This document shows positions 34,506 to 55,667 of a stretch of DNA of 64,000 nucleotides, piece after piece. Both the position numbers and the translations under genes were made by a program. Numbering within the stretch: the first letter of the stretch is position 1; each line of letters opens with the position of its first letter. Source of the DNA: Bacillaceae bacterium IKA-2 (GTDB taxonomy: Bacteria; Bacillota; Bacilli; Bacillales; Anaerobacillaceae); NCBI GenBank assembly GCA_031761875.1, contig CP134492.1:1488001-1552000 (forward strand). Reading direction: 5' to 3'. A model generated the notes under the pieces. It made no database searches, was not told where the DNA came from, and saw nothing but the letters and a program-made list of their open reading frames with translations.

Positions 34506-34721
34506 AATTATTAATCATCTTCGATCTATTTTTTTAGTACTTTCACTAAATTTTTACCAGTGTTACTAAAGGGATTTTATTAATTTTGTTTAATTTAGAC
34601 AGAGTATAACTGTTGTGGCTTCTAAAAAAATTATCCTTCTCGTCGAATTATTTTTCTAACAATGGAAACATGTATTTGTCAACTCAAAAGCGGTCCACGA
34701 ATCAGTTGAAAAAAGGTCCAC

Positions 34722-35468
34722 TTATTTAGTTGGTTTTAGCCATGACATTGTCTCTTCAAATCGGTGACTTACTTCTCGTGAAATATCTAAGATATGTGAT
34801 TTGTGAGCAAGTCTATCTACAATTGCACCAGTAAGCATCGGGTCTTTAAAAATCTCTTCCCAGCGATCAAAAGCCAAGTTTGTTGTTATGATTATTGATC
34901 CTTTATCGTTTCTATTTGATAATAAATTAAATAGTATTTCACAACCAATTTTGTCAAATGATACGTATCCCAGTTCATCTAAAACGACAAGACTGTACTT
35001 TTCAAATTTGGTTTTATATTGCGATAGTTTGCTTTCACTCATTGCTTCTTTTAACTCTATTATTAAGTTAGGTACAGAGATAAACAATACACTTTTGCCT
35101 TCCAAACACGCCTTAATACCAAGCCCAATACTATAATGTGATTTCCCGCAGCCAGGAGATCCTATTAAGATTATATTTTCTTTATTTTCAATGAACTGCA
35201 ACGTTTCTAGTTCTTCGAATTTCGGTATAAATTTCTTATGGTACTTACTCTTGTCGAAGTCTTCTAAGTACTTGTTAAGAGGGAATTTAGCCCTTCTGAG
35301 TCTATGTTTTAAACCATTCTCAAGCCTTAGTTCTAATTCTCTTTCGAGTAGACGACTTATCAGCTCTCGGTGGGTCATGTTTGTATGGTTTGCTTCATCA
35401 AGAAGCATTTGATAATTGGTTTTTATATAGGGTAATTTTAGTATATGGGCCATTTCTTGTATTTGCAT
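34722..35468 (-). CDS. istB: IstB-like ATPase, IS21 transposition helper
   Basis: A 248-residue AAA+ ATPase with Walker A (GSPGCGKSH, near residue 103) and Walker B (LVVLDELGY near residue 165). IstB binds target DNA and delivers it to the IstA transposase. The istA stop TAA is immediately followed by the istB ATG, with GGAGGTGG just upstream. The gene looks intact, but its partner is disrupted, so the element should not move by itself. Confidence 0.92.
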   Translation of the reverse strand: MQIQEMAHILKLPYIKTNYQMLLDEANHTNMTHRELISRLLERELELRLENGLKHRLRRAKFPLNKYLEDFDKSKYHKKFIPKFEELETLQFIENKENIILIGSPGCGKSHYSIGLGIKACLEGKSVLFISVPNLIIELKEAMSESKLSQYKTKFEKYSLVVLDELGYVSFDKIGCEILFNLLSNRNDKGSIIITTNLAFDRWEEIFKDPMLTGAIVDRLAHKSHILDISREVSHRFEETMSWLKPTK

Positions 35469-36157
35469 TTATTCCACCTCCGAGAAACATAATTCGTTAT
35501 ATCTAGATACTTGCCTTGTAGCGATGTTGCTAAGTGCAGTTTTATCTATGTGCATAGATGGAATAATATCGATATGAGATTTATTGTATGTTTCTAGAAT
35601 CAATAGTATTTCTTCGATTGGTTTATCATCATTTTCTTGAATGATCTCTATGAATTTTTTCTTGTTTCTGCTAAAATTAGTATCATAGATGGCTTTTAAC
35701 CTTGGTATGCTTTTTAGAGCGTGGGAGTTCTTGATTGCACCTGGTTTTTTGTTTAATGAGTTTAAGTAATGTTTAATTTTAATACTTATCTCGTTAGTAC
35801 CATCTATTTTTTTGTGTTCACAAACGAGTATGTTGTTTGAATAAAAGCCTATTGTGTCGTAATATTTCTTGATTGTTATTAAGCGTCCTACAAGATACTC
35901 CGGTACTGAATAGTGGTTGTTATCAACTCGTACAAAACTATATTTATTTGGTTTTTGCACTGTAACTGTTGCAAGATCAAGCTTTGGTTTTGTAGGTTGA
36001 AGATGTTTTATTTCTTCAGAAATAGTGCTGTCTTTATTGAGTTCTATCAATATAGTATTCAAGTATTCACGTGCATCATCGAATGTCTTAAACTTATAAG
36101 TTAACGCAAATGCTTTGTTCCTAATTATCTTCACGCTGCCCTCCACATGACCCTTCT
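35469..36157 (-). pseudogene. istA: istA C-terminal fragment
   Basis: The C-terminal part of an IS21 transposase. It resumes at the codons GHVEGSVK, where the Glu is the last acid of the DDE catalytic triad, and runs about 228 residues to the stop touching istB. It includes the Mu-type beta-barrel region (VRVDNNHYSVPEYLVG). The N-terminal part lies 3.5 kb away at 39650-40435; the RIT element separates them. Confidence 0.9.
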
Positions 36158-36183
36158 AATGCAAAGCTTTACATTAGAAGGGT
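36150..36183. repeat. 34-bp near-perfect palindrome at the RIT/istA junction
   Basis: ACCCTTCTAATG at 36150 is the reverse complement of CATTAGAAGGGT ending at 36183, and the middle is AAAGCTTT-centred with one mismatched pair. It joins the duplicated target bases to the terminal repeat and is present only at this end. Confidence 0.75.
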
Positions 36184-36263
36184 AATGAAAAGTATATGAT
36201 AATGTAAAGTAAGGCTGTTAAATAACCGTAAGTAAAGGATCCCTCGCTGTTTTACTTTACATT
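36176..36263. repeat. RIT terminal inverted repeat, low-coordinate end
   Basis: Reads AGAAGGGTAATGAAAAGTAT outward-in, continues through ATAATGTAAAGTAAGGCTGT and ends in TGTTTTACTTTACATT. The first 45 bases match the other end apart from one base; the inner 16 also match. The two TTTACTTTACATT motifs face each other and look like recombinase arm sites. Confidence 0.8.
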
Positions 36264-36284
36264 ATCTGCAACGCAAACACTATT

Positions 36285-37304
36285 TTATTTATCAAATCTT
36301 TTTAGCCATTCCAATAAATCTCCACTTTTTTGCCAAGAAGGTGCACCTTTTGGTACAACATCTGTATATGCTTTTTCAATTGCTTCTCTTTTTTGTTTTG
36401 AATCTACCTTAGCGTAAATTTCAGTTGTTTGGACAGAACGGTGACCTAGTATATCACGGATGTATATGAGATTAACTCCTGCTTGGAGTAAGTGCATAGC
36501 TTTTGAATGTCTCAGACAATGACAGCTAAATCGTTCTGGGATTAATATTTGATCTTTAATACGAGCCTTGCGTGCATATTTATCTAGTATGTAATTCACC
36601 CCTGCCCGGGTCAGTTTTTCTCCTCTTTTGTTACAGAACAATGGGTACATGTTTGCTGACAAACTTAACAGCCCCTGCTCATCCATATATCGATTTAATA
36701 AATCTAACGGAGCATCCATCAGAGGGACTATCCGGGCTTTATTCCCCTTACCAATTAACTTTACAGTACATGGTCTGTCAAAACGTACTTGTGACGGAGT
36801 GAGGTCAATGATTTCCTGTACTCTTCCACCGCTTTCATACATAATTGACAAAAGAGCAAGATCTCTTCGTCCTATTTTAGTTGACTGATCAGGCATTTCC
36901 AAAAGTAGTCTGATCCCATTAAGCGTTAGGTAACTGATTGATTTTGTTTCTGTTTTCTTAACCCGGATTCCAAGGATTCTCTGCCATTCCAAAAGATTAT
37001 CGGGGCTCTGATACTGGAGATATTGGAAGAAAGAGTGTAATGCCGCAAGGCGGACGTTCCTTGTGGCTGTACTACAGCCACGCTCTGTTTCTATCCAGTC
37101 AAGAAAGTGAATAACCATTTCCTTATTAATCATGCCCAGCGTCAGAGAATTTGTTTTTATTCCTTTTTTATCCTTGATAAATGTAAGGAAAAGTACAAAT
37201 GTGTCTCTATAAGAGGCAATCGTATTTATACTGAACCCCATTTCTCCTGGCAGGTATTTTGTAAGAAATCCTGTCAGATAGCGAGAGAAATCAGTCGGCT
37301 TCAT
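36285..37304 (-). CDS. RIT tyrosine recombinase, third gene
   Basis: A 339-residue tyrosine recombinase with an N-terminal SAM-like core-binding domain and a C-terminal catalytic domain: Arg in YESGGRVQEI, Lys in GKGNKARIVPL, HCLRH, GHRSVQTTEIY with the nucleophilic Tyr. ATG 37304 follows CGGAGGTTGACC; a longer frame to 37334 lacks this site. Its first 14 bases overlap the previous recombinase gene. All catalytic residues appear present. Confidence 0.88.
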   Translation of the reverse strand: MKPTDFSRYLTGFLTKYLPGEMGFSINTIASYRDTFVLFLTFIKDKKGIKTNSLTLGMINKEMVIHFLDWIETERGCSTATRNVRLAALHSFFQYLQYQSPDNLLEWQRILGIRVKKTETKSISYLTLNGIRLLLEMPDQSTKIGRRDLALLSIMYESGGRVQEIIDLTPSQVRFDRPCTVKLIGKGNKARIVPLMDAPLDLLNRYMDEQGLLSLSANMYPLFCNKRGEKLTRAGVNYILDKYARKARIKDQILIPERFSCHCLRHSKAMHLLQAGVNLIYIRDILGHRSVQTTEIYAKVDSKQKREAIEKAYTDVVPKGAPSWQKSGDLLEWLKRFDK

Positions 37305-38262
37305 AATGGTCAACCTCCGGAAATACATAGGCACAAACGTTATCTACTTCTCTAATTAAATCAGGGTACATGTCAGATGTTAGCCTTACATACTTATCTG
37401 TAGCCTCTAATGACTGATGCCCAAGATATTTTGATAATATTGGGAGTGAGTAGTATAAATCTAGCCCAGCTTCTGACATTTTCACAAGAGAGTGTACACT
37501 GAAAGTGTGACGAAAGTCATGCATTCTTGGGCCAAAACCCTTCCCACCATGTGGAATTCCTGCATTCCAGAGTATTTTTCTGAACCATTCATATATTGCC
37601 TTGGCATTACATTTTTGCCCATTGTTCTTGATAAAAAAATAACCTTTCGGTTCATATTTGCCGGGACGAACATTCCTATATTGAATACACACCTCAGTTA
37701 GTGTTTCAGATAATGGGAGTATTCGGTCTTTGCCGTTTTTCGTTTCCCTGACAATAATATTTTTTGCATCAAGATCAACATCCTTACATGTTAGGGATAA
37801 CGCTTCGCTGATACGGATGCCACAGCCATATAGCATTCTAAATAAAGCGGGGAGTACATACACAGTTGTTTCAAATCGTCTATTAACTTTAAGCGTATCA
37901 CATGCATCGAAGAATGCATTCACTTCCTTTTTCGAGAAAATATGTGGTACAAACGTACTGCTGTACTTTTTAGGCAATCTCGGTATATGTGATGGATATC
38001 CCATATCATTTAAATAGGCGGAAAATTTTGCAATATAATGAATCCTCGCATAACGTGTCTTGTCTGATTCATTTGGACGCTTCTCACTCCATTTATCAAC
38101 AATCTCCTTTGATAGACCGAGTTTTAATACGGCATTATCTATTGTAAATCTGTCAAATAACGAAAGTGTGTAAGTGGCATCAACAAACTTGTAACCGAGG
38201 TTTCTTTTGAAATCAATGTACTGTTCGATTAAACCAGCATAAATACCACAATAGTTCGGCAT
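37291..38262 (-). CDS. RIT tyrosine recombinase, second gene
   Basis: A 323-residue tyrosine recombinase. Catalytic blocks are YGCGIRISEAL, NGKDRILPL, HDFRHTFSVHSL and YLGHQSLEATDKY. AAGGAGGTGGA precedes ATGATG; the second ATG (38262) has the better spacing and shares one base with the TGA of the first recombinase gene, so the genes are translationally coupled. The N-terminal 80 residues form the DNA-binding domain. Confidence 0.88.
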   Translation of the reverse strand: MPNYCGIYAGLIEQYIDFKRNLGYKFVDATYTLSLFDRFTIDNAVLKLGLSKEIVDKWSEKRPNESDKTRYARIHYIAKFSAYLNDMGYPSHIPRLPKKYSSTFVPHIFSKKEVNAFFDACDTLKVNRRFETTVYVLPALFRMLYGCGIRISEALSLTCKDVDLDAKNIIVRETKNGKDRILPLSETLTEVCIQYRNVRPGKYEPKGYFFIKNNGQKCNAKAIYEWFRKILWNAGIPHGGKGFGPRMHDFRHTFSVHSLVKMSEAGLDLYYSLPILSKYLGHQSLEATDKYVRLTSDMYPDLIREVDNVCAYVFPEVDHYEAD

Positions 38263-39509
38263 CATTCCACCTCCTTGGCATAAAATGGCGTTTTTAAGAG
38301 TGGAACATCTAATGCGCATTGGCTCAAAGATGTTAAGTCTATTCGTAAATAAGTTTTTGTGCTTTCGGTATTCTTGTGACCTAGCACTTCTGATATAACA
38401 TGGATGGGTATTTTTTGTTCCAGTAGTTGCCCAGCAAGACTGTGCCTCAAAGCATGAGGACCATGTTTCTTTTCTGTTATGTTTTTAATGCCAGCACGAC
38501 GGAGATAAAAAGTAACAATGCTATGCAAAGTCGATCTATTTAGGCAGTTATATGGCGGGATTGCATGTAGGAAGACATAAGGAAGATCAGATTTAGGCCG
38601 TCCATACTTCAGATAATCGATAATAGCCTCTCCTATTTCTATTAAAAGTGGATGCTCAATCTTATTTTTAGTCTTTTGTTGAACAAGTGTAATTGTATTC
38701 TTTTCCCAGTGTATGTTTTCAAACTTCAACAGACAGATGTCAGAAGCCCTCAATCCCAATCGTGCAGCCAATAGTATCATAGCAGCATCACGCTTCCCTT
38801 TTGGGCTACTTCTGTCAACAGTATTGATTAATGATTCAACTTCATTTTTCGTATATGTCGTGGGTAGTTTACATTGCTTCTTGTAATTGTCTTTTGGAAT
38901 TAGGTATGAAAAGTCAATCCCTGTATACCCATTGTCATGTAGATATCTCATAAACCCACGTAAAGTGGTAAGCATGCTGTGGCGCGTTGCAGGTGTATAA
39001 AAACCAAGCTGATTCACAAATCCTAAAATGTGTTGTTTTTTAATTGCTTCGGTTTCCATGACTCCTTCTTCATTAAAAAAACTAAGAAAGCGATGAAGAT
39101 TTAATCGGTAATGACCAAGCGTATTTTCTGTAATACCCAAAGATTTTCGGTGATTAAGGAAATCCACCATAGGATTACCGATGCAACCATAAAATTGGTA
39201 GGATTTCTTTGCCCTTCTGTATTGGAACGTTCCTGTAGACTGAAATTCAGTTAGAACATCCACACACCGGATTATGCTCTTTTCCCAATGGCTAAATTCC
39301 TCGTATTTCCCAGTACCAATAAAGTCAGCTATAAATGCTCCACCTACTGACGCTGAATAATACTCAATCTGATTGTTTTCCATAAAAGTAGCCAGTTTTT
39401 GCCACGCGGAACGATATTGGCTTATCCTTGATTCGGAATAGGACATATCCCGAAGGGATTTAACTACTTCTGAGGACAGTTGTTCAAATGTTTGATATTT
39501 TTGTTCCAT
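38262..39509 (-). CDS. RIT tyrosine recombinase, first gene
   Basis: A 415-residue tyrosine recombinase, the longest of the trio, with an extra N-terminal region of about 120 residues before the core-binding domain. Catalytic blocks are RLGLRASDIC, QKTKNKIEHPL, HALRHSLAGQLL and VLGHKNTESTKTY. ATG 39509 follows AGGAGG by eight bases; the ATG two codons upstream is too close to it. It is the promoter-proximal gene of the three. Confidence 0.88.
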   Translation of the reverse strand: MEQKYQTFEQLSSEVVKSLRDMSYSESRISQYRSAWQKLATFMENNQIEYYSASVGGAFIADFIGTGKYEEFSHWEKSIIRCVDVLTEFQSTGTFQYRRAKKSYQFYGCIGNPMVDFLNHRKSLGITENTLGHYRLNLHRFLSFFNEEGVMETEAIKKQHILGFVNQLGFYTPATRHSMLTTLRGFMRYLHDNGYTGIDFSYLIPKDNYKKQCKLPTTYTKNEVESLINTVDRSSPKGKRDAAMILLAARLGLRASDICLLKFENIHWEKNTITLVQQKTKNKIEHPLLIEIGEAIIDYLKYGRPKSDLPYVFLHAIPPYNCLNRSTLHSIVTFYLRRAGIKNITEKKHGPHALRHSLAGQLLEQKIPIHVISEVLGHKNTESTKTYLRIDLTSLSQCALDVPLLKTPFYAKEVE

Positions 39510-39567
39510 AATCATAACCTCCTATATTTAACGTAGGCGACCTCGCCTATATTAAATATAGCCATTG

Positions 39568-39657
39568 AAAATGTAAAGTAAAACAACTAGAATCACTTTG
39601 TTTATAGTTATCTAACAGCCTTACTTTACATTATCATATACTTTTCATTACCCTTCT
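39568..39657. repeat. RIT terminal inverted repeat, high-coordinate end
   Basis: On the minus strand it reads AGAAGGGTAATGAAAAGTAT inward and continues as at the other end, with TGTTTTACTTTACATT as the inner block. The middle 25 bases differ between the ends while both outer and inner blocks are kept, which suggests selection on two binding sites per end. Confidence 0.8.
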
Positions 39658-40435
39658 CGTTTCCACTGAAACAATTAGTGACGTTGATATCGAATCCGTA
39701 GTAGAGTGACAATTTTAGCAAATTCTCATTGAGGACTTTTTCAGTTTTACCTATGAATTTTGATACTACATTTCTCATATTGTCGTACACAATCTCTGAA
39801 TAAACGCCACCTAACATATCGAAGAAACGCACATGAGAATCCATAAAGACGTCTTGCTTTTGATTCTTATATAAATACGCCCATCTGAAATCAGCAGCTG
39901 GTGAAGATAGTACAGCTAGATGATAGGTATTGATCTCCCCGTTTATTTCTAACTTCACTTCGCCAAAATCATATTCAAGTCTTTGCCCTAAATCATATGA
40001 TTGTTTAATAAAGCATTCCTTAGGTTTGTTTCTTTTTTCTCTGATTTTATTTGTAATAGTTGTATATCCAATATCAAACTTTTCATTGACTAGCATTTGG
40101 TGAATTTGCAAATTAGTCAGCTGTTGTTTATGTCGACCTAACTCTTTACACTTTTCAGATTCACTCTCTAGGATTTCGTCTAATCTGGTATCGATTTCTG
40201 CTGTGTACTTTCTTGGCTTTCTATTTTGAGCATTATACTTTGGTGCCTCGCATATTTTTTCTTGTACTTCTTGTACTTCTTTTTTATTAACGTCTAAGGC
40301 ATTCAACAGAGTATTGTTCTTCTGGTACTCATTCCAATAGATTGCGACTGTTTTCCGATTGATGTTTAAAAGCTTGGCAGCTTTTCTATTGGATACACCT
40401 TGCTGCTTTAGTTTTATTATTGCATGTTTGTCCAT
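39650..40435 (-). pseudogene. istA: istA N-terminal fragment
   Basis: The first 262 residues of the IS21 transposase: helix-turn-helix (GVSNRKAAKLLNINRKTVA) and the first two catalytic acids (LEYDFGEVKLEI and IVYDNMRN). It breaks after CFSGNEKG, right before the catalytic Glu found in the other fragment, then reads a few codons into the RIT end and stops at 39626. ATG 40435 follows TGGAGTGA. Confidence 0.9.
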
Positions 40436-40593
40436 TATCTCAATCACTCCATCCCACCCCTTTACTGCCATCATAACAGTAAGAGATTAGTGTTAAAGTA
40501 CTGGACCGTTTTTCAATTGATATTATTCTATTAATGGGCCACTTTTAGAGTATCATAAACAAAACATTAAGACATGAGTGAGGTGTAAAGTAA

Positions 40594-47645: not shown

Positions 47646-49209
<1,564 letters not shown>

Positions 49210-49263
49210 TGGAGTTAAAACTCTAGTCGATACTTTTGCTTTCATTAGTAGAAGTACGCTTAC

Positions 49264-49280
49264 GCTGTGTGTTCAGTTTT
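49264..49280 (+). other. 16S rRNA processing stem, 3' strand
   Basis: GCTGTGTGTTCAGTTTT pairs over 17 bases with the leader segment at 47519-47535. Confidence 0.8.
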
Positions 49281-49316
49281 GGAAGAATAATCTTCCAATT
49301 TAATAAAGGCAATTTA

Positions 49317-49421
49317 GAAGCAAGTAGTTCGAGAAAGCAAGTGGGACAATCCCCGGAATGTACATAAGGTACATGAGGACGATTGGCACACGCCGCTGAC
49401 GAAGAAATACGAAGCTTATCA
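49317..49421 (+). repeat. Spacer repeat, copy 1
   Basis: The 16S-23S spacer holds two related segments of about 105 bp. This one contains AGCAAGTAGTTCGAGAAAGC, a GTAC-loop hairpin (GTACATAAGGTACATGAGGA) and GACGAAGAAATACGAAGCTT. The spacer has no tRNA gene. Confidence 0.7.
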
Positions 49422-49433
49422 ATTGGCTTTTCG

Positions 49434-49454
49434 TTCTTTGAAAACTAGATAACA
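49434..49454 (+). other. 23S rRNA processing stem, 5' strand
   Basis: TTCTTTGAAAACTAGATAAC plus A pairs over 21 bases with 52721-52741 after the 3' end of 23S. It also carries the boxA-like antitermination motif. Confidence 0.8.
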
Positions 49455-49551
49455 ACAATAACAACACATTTAAGTTTTACCGGAAAGTTTGTAAAAACGT
49501 GAAGGTAAATTTGAGTAGTCAAGAATTCAATTCGACGTAGAAATCCTTTTA

Positions 49552-49588
49552 ACAGGTGTTTTTGTAAAAAGACACCAGGTATTTTTTT
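49552..49588 (+). terminator. Terminator-like hairpin inside the 16S-23S spacer
   Basis: GGTGTTTTT and AAAAAGACACC form a hairpin followed within five bases by TATTTTTTT. In the middle of an rrn operon it should be overridden by boxA-dependent antitermination. Confidence 0.5.
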
Positions 49589-49590
49589 GA

Positions 49591-49697
49591 GAGAAGCGAG
49601 TAGTTCAAGGAAACAAGCGAGGCGATCCCCGCAATGTACTTTTGGGTACATGAGGACGATTTCGAGCGCAGTTGACGAAGAAATGCGAAGCTTATCA
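49591..49697 (+). repeat. Spacer repeat, copy 2
   Basis: Related to 49317-49421: GAAGCGAGTAGTTCAAGGAA, a GTACTTTTGGGTAC hairpin, CATGAGGACGATT and GACGAAGAAATGCGAAGCTT. It ends 11 bp before 23S rRNA. Confidence 0.7.
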
Positions 49698-49708
49698 CAA
49701 AAAGATTA

Positions 49709-52666
<2,958 letters not shown>

Positions 52667-52720
52667 AAAAATAAGACGAATTGAATTGAATGAAGCTCAA
52701 ATCTTGAATGTGTGTACAGT

Positions 52721-52741
52721 TGTTATCTAGTTTTCAAAGAA
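52721..52741 (+). other. 23S rRNA processing stem, 3' strand
   Basis: TGTTATCTAGTTTTCAAAGA plus A is the exact reverse complement of 49434-49454 before 23S. Confidence 0.8.
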
Positions 52742-52764
52742 TGAATTTCTTTGATTAATAATAG

Positions 52765-52880
<116 letters not shown>

Positions 52881-55401: not shown

Positions 55402-55548
55402 CCTTCTCTCTTTAATAACGCTTACGAGGTTAGCTGTCGGATTAGGGACTGAGAGTATCCCCTCTTACAAATGTAAGATTTACCCCAAAACAGTTTGGAG
55501 ACTGTTTAGTTTGGTTCCCCCGCTCAAAAAAATGATTCAGCGATTTAT
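55402..55548 (-). promoter_or_regulatory. c-di-AMP riboswitch (ydaO-yuaA family) upstream of ktrA
   Basis: Read on the minus strand the conserved blocks occur in order: AATCGCTGAATCA, GAGCGGGGGAACCAAA, GGGGTAAATCTTAC, TCTCAGTCCCTAATCCG, CAGCTAACCTCGTAAGCGT and GAGAGAAGG. This is the ydaO-yuaA aptamer, which in Bacillus controls ktrAB (yuaA). A terminator lies just downstream, so high c-di-AMP should switch ktrA off. Confidence 0.93.
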
Positions 55549-55667
55549 AGGTGTATGATAAGTAAATTTACTCCTGATTCCGAGCTTTGTCAATACTTAA
55601 TTATATTAATAGACATTGCTCTTTCGGTATAAAAAAAGCTTTCTATCTTTGGATAAATTATCATAAG

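Follow-up and report, generated by a model that had tools for sequence, protein, structure and literature searches.

The window analysed here, a 64,000-bp stretch of Bacillaceae bacterium IKA-2 (contig CP134492.1, positions 1,488,001 to 1,552,000), contains an IS21-family transposable element whose transposase gene, istA, is split by a second mobile element, a RIT (recombinase in trio), made up of three overlapping tyrosine recombinase genes. The window's own genome is a single contig of 4.42 Mb (G000; numbers beginning with L are locus labels). The parts of the composite, in window coordinates, are as follows.

34666–34670: left target-site duplication AAACA, called from the sequence and pairing with 40562–40566
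34671–40561, minus strand: IS21-family element interrupted by the RIT; this IS21 has 22 copies in the genome
34722–35468, minus strand: istB, 248 aa (Pfam IstB_IS21, E 3.9e-60)
35469–36146, minus strand: 3′ part of istA, with the presumed catalytic Glu in HVEGSVK (open reading frame and Pfam)
36150–36157, minus strand: 8-bp core AGAAGGGT (istA sense) on the istA 3′ side, from the sequence
36158–36175, minus strand: 18-bp near-palindromic spacer AATGTAAAGCTTTGCATT (istA sense), reversed in eight opposite copies
36176–36183, plus strand: inverted inner core, AGAAGGGT on the plus strand, from the sequence
36176–36220: 45-bp terminal inverted repeat on the ritC side, inner core included (40 ends, 0 mismatches)
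36285–37334, minus strand: ritC, tyrosine recombinase, 349 aa (Phage_integrase, E 3.8e-31; R, HxxR and Y motifs)
37291–38319, minus strand: ritB, tyrosine recombinase, 342 aa (Pfam and motifs)
38262–39515, minus strand: ritA, tyrosine recombinase, 417 aa (Pfam and motifs)
39613–39657: 45-bp terminal inverted repeat on the ritA side, outer core included (end-pattern search)
39650–39657, minus strand: 8-bp core AGAAGGGT (istA sense) on the istA 5′ side, from the sequence
39658–40474, minus strand: 5′ part of istA, whose frame continues into the RIT and stops at 39626 (open reading frame and Pfam)
40562–40566: right target-site duplication AAACA, from the sequence

The outer element has the hallmarks of the IS21 family, namely TG...CA ends, a DDE-type istA, an istB ATPase gene and a short target duplication; its ends and both AAACA copies are intact, as the original prediction had stated. 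The 5′ part of istA gives an open frame of 282 aa that stops just inside the RIT, and the 3′ part restarts at HVEGSVK, the E of which we take to be the DDE Glu of the IS21 transposase. Between the halves, open reading frames and Pfam recover the three overlapping recombinase genes that had been proposed there, and RitA, RitB and RitC each retain the R, HxxR and Tyr motifs. Three adjacent, overlapping genes within 3,500 bp, 45-bp repeats and an 18-bp palindrome-like spacer identify the insert as a RIT, and its A-B-C gene order is that of the trios in related loci and of annotated recombinase trios in plasmids, for example of Cupriavidus, the genus of the first RITs. No open reading frame of at least 100 aa other than the recombinases lies between the RIT ends as a candidate for the tnpC partner gene of Tn554-like elements; shorter frames were not compared with TnpC. 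One might speculate that IstA works in split form, its C-terminal part starting at a GTG at 36146 behind AGAAGGG.

Two uninterrupted copies of this IS21, both in the same genome, define the empty site. L021 and L022 are 2391 bp each, are open over 501 aa and read GGAAACG-AGAAGGGT-CATGTGGAGG at the relevant position; the 501-aa IstA translated from L021 contains CFSGNEKGHVEGSVK, with the joined reading GNEKG-HVEGSVK. The net insertion is thus 5891 − 2391 = 3500 bp, that is, 36158–39649 plus one 8-bp core copy. The original prediction held that removing precisely this segment restores the istA frame, and that an uninterrupted istA differing from the join would speak against it; L021 and L022 match the predicted join exactly, and the prediction survives. 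The split gene, the Pfam matches and the empty copies together confirm that the RIT is nested directly ahead of the presumed catalytic Glu.

Searching the genome with the element returned 22 IS21 copies, of which 11 carry the RIT in the direct orientation and eight in the opposite one, two are empty and one is chimeric (L012), so that istA is broken in 20/22. A whole-genome search for the 45-bp RIT end pattern, allowing up to 3 mismatches, gave 40 occurrences corresponding to 20 copies, all with 0 mismatches and all within this IS21. The proposed search for further RIT copies with the same ends therefore succeeded inside this IS21 and found none outside it at ≤3 mismatches. The number of copies, their two orientations, and the spacer with a third, inverted core (36158–36183) go beyond what had been noted before. 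Two further IstA-like genes (G000:C1:1599078-1599968 and 4130278-4131168), with 28% identity and a 446-aa open frame, are uninterrupted over the matched stretch.

These copies allow the junctions to be read directly. In istA sense, the empty site is GAAACG-AGAAGGGT-CATG and the direct copy is GAAACG-AGAAGGGT-RIT-ACCCTTCT-AATGTAAAGCTTTGCATT-AGAAGGGT-CATG; the opposite copy has the same layout, but with the RIT reversed and the spacer reading AATGCAAAGCTTTACATT. The single core of the empty site thus becomes two direct cores and one inverted core, with the 18-bp near-palindrome between. The spacer is AATGTAAAGCTTTGCATT in 11/11 direct copies and AATGCAAAGCTTTACATT in 8/8 opposite copies, and the split of 11 versus 8 fits chance (p = 0.65). 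Perfect 45-bp inverted repeats in the company of site-specific recombinases would also suit an invertible phase-variation switch, in which the RIT turns in place between its repeats to yield the two orientations. Such an inversion would keep the spacer unchanged, yet the spacer has turned with the RIT in all eight opposite copies, so these are not simple inversions; the objection strikes the simple form and not excision followed by re-entry into the same copy. We rejected the switch, and consider in-place inversion a very improbable source of the two orientations.

Instead, we propose that the three recombinases would excise the RIT as a 3,500-bp circle, the junction of which would read ACCCTTCT-spacer-AGAAGGGT, two inverted cores with arms of the type TATGnAAAG sharing one spacer. 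Either core of the circle could pair with the single core of the target, and the RIT could thereby integrate in either direction; because the core is asymmetric, the spacer would always come to lie towards the 3′ side of istA, as it does in direct and opposite copies alike. Twenty copies, two orientations and empty sites would point to active transposition of the RIT. In the chimera L012 (G000:C1:2182728-2192219), the istB-side half of the IS21 lies on both sides of the RIT, with spacers at both ends. Structures with the same half on both sides also occur at L055, L084, L108, L115, L129 and L132.

Relatives show that the position within istA is not peculiar to this genome. A search for this IS21 in congeners matched 2/7 genomes, namely G000 itself and, in G004, a 140-bp RIT stretch at 74%. 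In other genera, the codons at the istA Glu are also struck in the IS21 elements of L074 (from Pfam pieces and reading), L114 and L113 (from reading of the piece), and the position is therefore no accident of one event. Together, these data make it very likely that the insert is a RIT, a recombinase-only element of 3.5 kb that is site-specific for the Lys-Gly codons ahead of the IS21 IstA Glu, and that RIT lineages follow a rule by which the core is fitted to a motif.

Near-identical RITs in divergent hosts offer a view of insertion that does not depend on the copies in G000. With RitA as query at E ≤ 1e-30, matches were found in 14/299 genomes of the order, G000 included. Among these, G004, of the same genus, holds four copies of a related RIT (99.9–100% identical among themselves; 33%, 39% and 45% identical to RitA, RitB and RitC of the window), and all four interrupt istB within its Walker-A codons, two in gene direction and two opposite. 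L050 sits in a different IS21 from L051–L053, the IstB halves being 34% and 39% identical. The 4-bp junction bases, in istB sense, are CGGA / CCCC / CGGT at L052 and CGGA / TCCG / GGGG at L053. Because the istB genes of L052 and L053 are nearly the same (identical over 591 bp on the N side, about 99.4% on the C side), the shared CGGA, which lies on the side without the spacer, is most readily taken as belonging to the target, and the spacer-side bases would be borne by the circle, which resembles the footprint rule given for strand-biased circularizing elements (SEs) and Tn554 elements in passages of PMC10214605. A search for unfilled copies of the G004 IS21 brought up three copies, which are the three filled ones. 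In Neobacillus sp. PS3-12, three RITs that are 99.8–100% identical lie in group II intron reverse transcriptases (RTs) only 33–48% identical, all at GTPQGG|xxSP, and the aligned identity stops at the RIT, with no further host DNA aligned. Near-identical RITs thus occupy the same motif of host genes this dissimilar within one genome, which argues that the insertions are independent. The RITs of L115 (in IS4) and L119 (in HsdR) are 97% identical, in different host genes.

How the 20 copies in G000 arose is a separate matter from the insertion mechanism. The RIT may have entered istA only twice, once each way, with the IS21::RIT composites then spreading by IstA and IstB supplied in trans from intact copies, of which two are present. 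All 22 IS21 and 20 RIT sequences are essentially identical, as this history would have it: the IS21 parts agree across the 21 non-chimeric copies except in L015, where 12 bp are deleted 22 bases into the 3′ part of istA, and the RITs show one single-base difference, in L020. Flanking duplications, compared by eye, match in 17/21 non-chimeric copies (the exceptions being L006, L011, L017 and L021), and in G004, L051 and L053 share orientation and are 99.98% identical over 6.4 kb, as for co-transposed composites. Intact copies with the same ends should also have spread, yet only 2/22 are empty, and G004 and Neobacillus show independent entry into different hosts. Linked variants separating direct from opposite copies were sought in the IS21 and the RIT, and none was found beyond the L020 and L015 changes. 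We regard amplification of composites as a possibility to be taken seriously, if short of probable, and favour serial entry of the RIT into an already spread IS21, given the high filling (20/22) and what is seen in G004 and Neobacillus. L011 has on its left the flank that L021 has on its right, which suggests recombination between IS21 copies.

A survey of relatives extended these comparisons. Scanning genome contigs (the best 80 of 558 confirmed loci) and viral contigs (51 loci) gave 131 loci; on the viral contigs, the window protein alone found no locus, and the 51 came from an alignment scan. At 64/131 loci all three genes are complete and host DNA flanks the RIT on one side or both; there the pieces adjoining the RIT ends were scanned separately against Pfam, some being read by eye. 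At 37/64 loci the break falls at codons of a recognised conserved motif; among same-order loci (20 fetched, 15 taken in) the fraction is 12/15, with L057, L066 and L067 unassigned. Breaks at L113, L115, L117, L139, L054 and L058 were read by eye, with no Pfam match of the piece; L161, L162 and L164 were assigned by likeness only to a sibling (L160), as were L163 (L165), L167 and L168 (L166) and L051 and L053 (L052). L105, which resembles an IS4 insertion, was left out of the counts.

Target genes are mostly, though not all, genes of mobile elements. Besides the IstA Glu (window, L074, L113, L114), the RITs strike the Glu or second Asp of rve transposases (L059, L071, L102, L117; L054/L055), Walker A (L050–L053, L101, L116, L129, L143) or Walker B (L141, L145) of IstB, a P-loop gene of unknown family (L058), group II intron RTs (L060, L061, L122, L127, L132, L136, L137, L139), the IS4 Glu (L087, L096, L106, L115), IS66 (L056, L140, and L084 at another conserved stretch) and IS3 (L062). 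Further targets are the HxxR of tyrosine recombinases (L146, L147, L158), one of them a RitC, RadC (L081, L082), amidoligases (L156, L159, L174), two C5 methylases, and single cases of a topoisomerase TOPRIM domain, a phage lysozyme and ParA. At L158 a RIT lies inside the ritC of another RIT, at the HxxR codons. A plasmid protein search returned 554 records, six of which were examined individually: in an annotated Rhodococcus plasmid a RIT splits a group II intron RT, with GTPQGG on one side and VISPL on the other, and in R. leguminosarum an IS66 gene adjoins the RIT, its exact break not placed. At L069, L070, L072, L073, L091, L103, L130 and others, in draft genomes, the RIT stands alone on a contig of ~3.4–3.5 kb; as such contigs look like a collapsed multicopy repeat, short-read assemblies may hide RIT sites.

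Within families, breaks recur at nearly the same Pfam coordinates: IstB 100–104 (6 loci, including L050 and L052, which carry the same RIT) and 160–162 (2), RVT_1 122–125 (6), DDE_Tnp_1 164 (3), rve end 102 (4), Phage_integrase 130–133 (3), IS66 152–156 (2), RadC 70 (2) and Amidoligase_2 112–113 (2). Altogether, 46/67 same-family pairs lie ≤5 profile positions apart, whereas uniform breaks simulated 100,000 times gave 3.8 such pairs on average and never more than 18; L132, L159 and L084 (Pfam match not reaching the break, or belonging to a different model) and the window istA (no rve match of the N part) were left out. An AGCT-centred near-palindrome lies near a RIT end at 42/65 loci versus 134/4000 random draws; arms resembling TATGnAAAG occur close to the left end at 59/65, a raw count without background for a loose pattern (L121, which is masked, was excluded from both counts). 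A RitC tree, built from the 41/112 sequences that carry a target label (loci with a broken or partial RitC are absent even if labelled), places the group II RT targets in one supported clade (100/100) and the tyrosine-recombinase targets in another (99/99), and its starred branches force three label changes for Walker A and two for the IstA Glu. These supported clades and forced changes together indicate that RIT targets are both inherited and re-acquired.

From this comparison, each RIT lineage would carry a core fitted to the codons of one conserved motif; such a fit would provide targets in many hosts, and a mobile host gene many targets per cell. We think it probable that RITs are bacteria-wide parasites built of recombinase genes alone, which insert themselves into catalytic-motif codons, mainly those of mobile elements, by a kind of homing that needs neither endonuclease nor splicing, with one core per motif, motif switches through exchange of core bases on the circle, and entry either way from a two-core junction. 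Several observations weigh against the proposed insertion mechanism and the core-motif rule. At 13/64 loci the gene has no clear catalytic motif at the break (for example HsdR, SSB, AbiEii, HK97 gp10, PcfK and DUF4314) and 14/64, one of them masked, have no host assignment; the motifs are presumed to be Walker A/B, PQGG, YREK, TOPRIM, ENV, HxxR and RadC HxHP, and part of the breaks were placed by eye. A common RIT ancestry of some loci makes the 67 pairs less than fully independent, and 23/65 loci lack an AGCT-centred spacer, some from a misplaced end call and some possibly truly. The reciprocal product of L012, with two istA 5′ halves, was not found in the genome (21 left IS ends versus 23 deduced right ends), and a two-core circle of this kind might also allow the RIT to invert where it stands, leaving the spacer unturned, a form seen in 0/8. 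The motif-bound look of the sites might even be an artefact, in that homology searches recognise conserved DNA; the 27/64 loci lacking a recognised catalytic motif at the break or an assigned host gene, and the calls made partly by eye, would fit that explanation. Breaks that recur within a few profile positions of long domains, and near-identical RITs that, inside one genome, strike the same codons in divergent genes, argue against it, and we judge such an artefact unlikely.

That RITs sit inside transposase genes is already known. PMC3414803, which gives RIT mobility as undemonstrated and the ends as unclear, places RITs in radC and in a Tn6049-like transposase gene, and PMC2864759 places them in IS66 tnpA and radC, with C. 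metallidurans CH34 among the hosts; in both sources RITs resemble that of the window in having overlapping ritA-ritB-ritC genes, ~3.5 kb, inverted repeats and a palindrome near the ends, and in interrupting transposase genes. For RITs, Table 1 of PMC10214605 (2023) marks target specificity, the empty site and movement as not tested, and its authors knew of no laboratory reproduction of RIT transposition. PMC8138268 describes a pair of CB domains in RitA and an additional helix in RitC. What is different here is that sequence reveals the exact ends, an empty site, insertion in either orientation with the spacer turned along with the RIT, and repeated targeting of motifs. In the titles, abstracts and passages searched, which did not extend to Ricker 2013, Van Houdt 2009, Nielsen 2017 or Hemme 2016, no paper describes motif targeting by RITs.

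Other recombinase-borne elements share part of this design. As excerpts of PMC10214605 describe them, the Tn554 family and SEs, like the RIT, have several tyrosine recombinases, no conjugation genes and a short footprint carried from the donor to the new site, and an SE was seen inserting in insJ of IS3; they differ in their own gene sets (TnpC; Tfp and Srap), whereas the RIT junction here consists of two inverted cores and a near-palindromic spacer. GInts, in sections of PMC5385486, likewise have several integrases, site specificity and a circular form, but have four genes and form genomic islands with cargo. The window RIT and its relatives can also be compared with other kinds of element. 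Tn554 inserts in radC, and homing elements (self-splicing introns and inteins) sit in codons of conserved active sites. The RIT shares such codons with homing elements but has neither splicing nor endonuclease, and the host gene is broken while the RIT is present. One site in empty, direct, opposite and chimeric states within one genome makes the junction chemistry readable. Should the wider rule hold, RITs would inactivate transposons and group II introns by breaking their active sites, acting as natural brakes on mobile DNA, and their cores would show how a site-specific recombinase changes targets.

Elsewhere in the window lie a complete 16S-23S-5S rRNA operon (47647–52880) and a c-di-AMP riboswitch (55404–55552).

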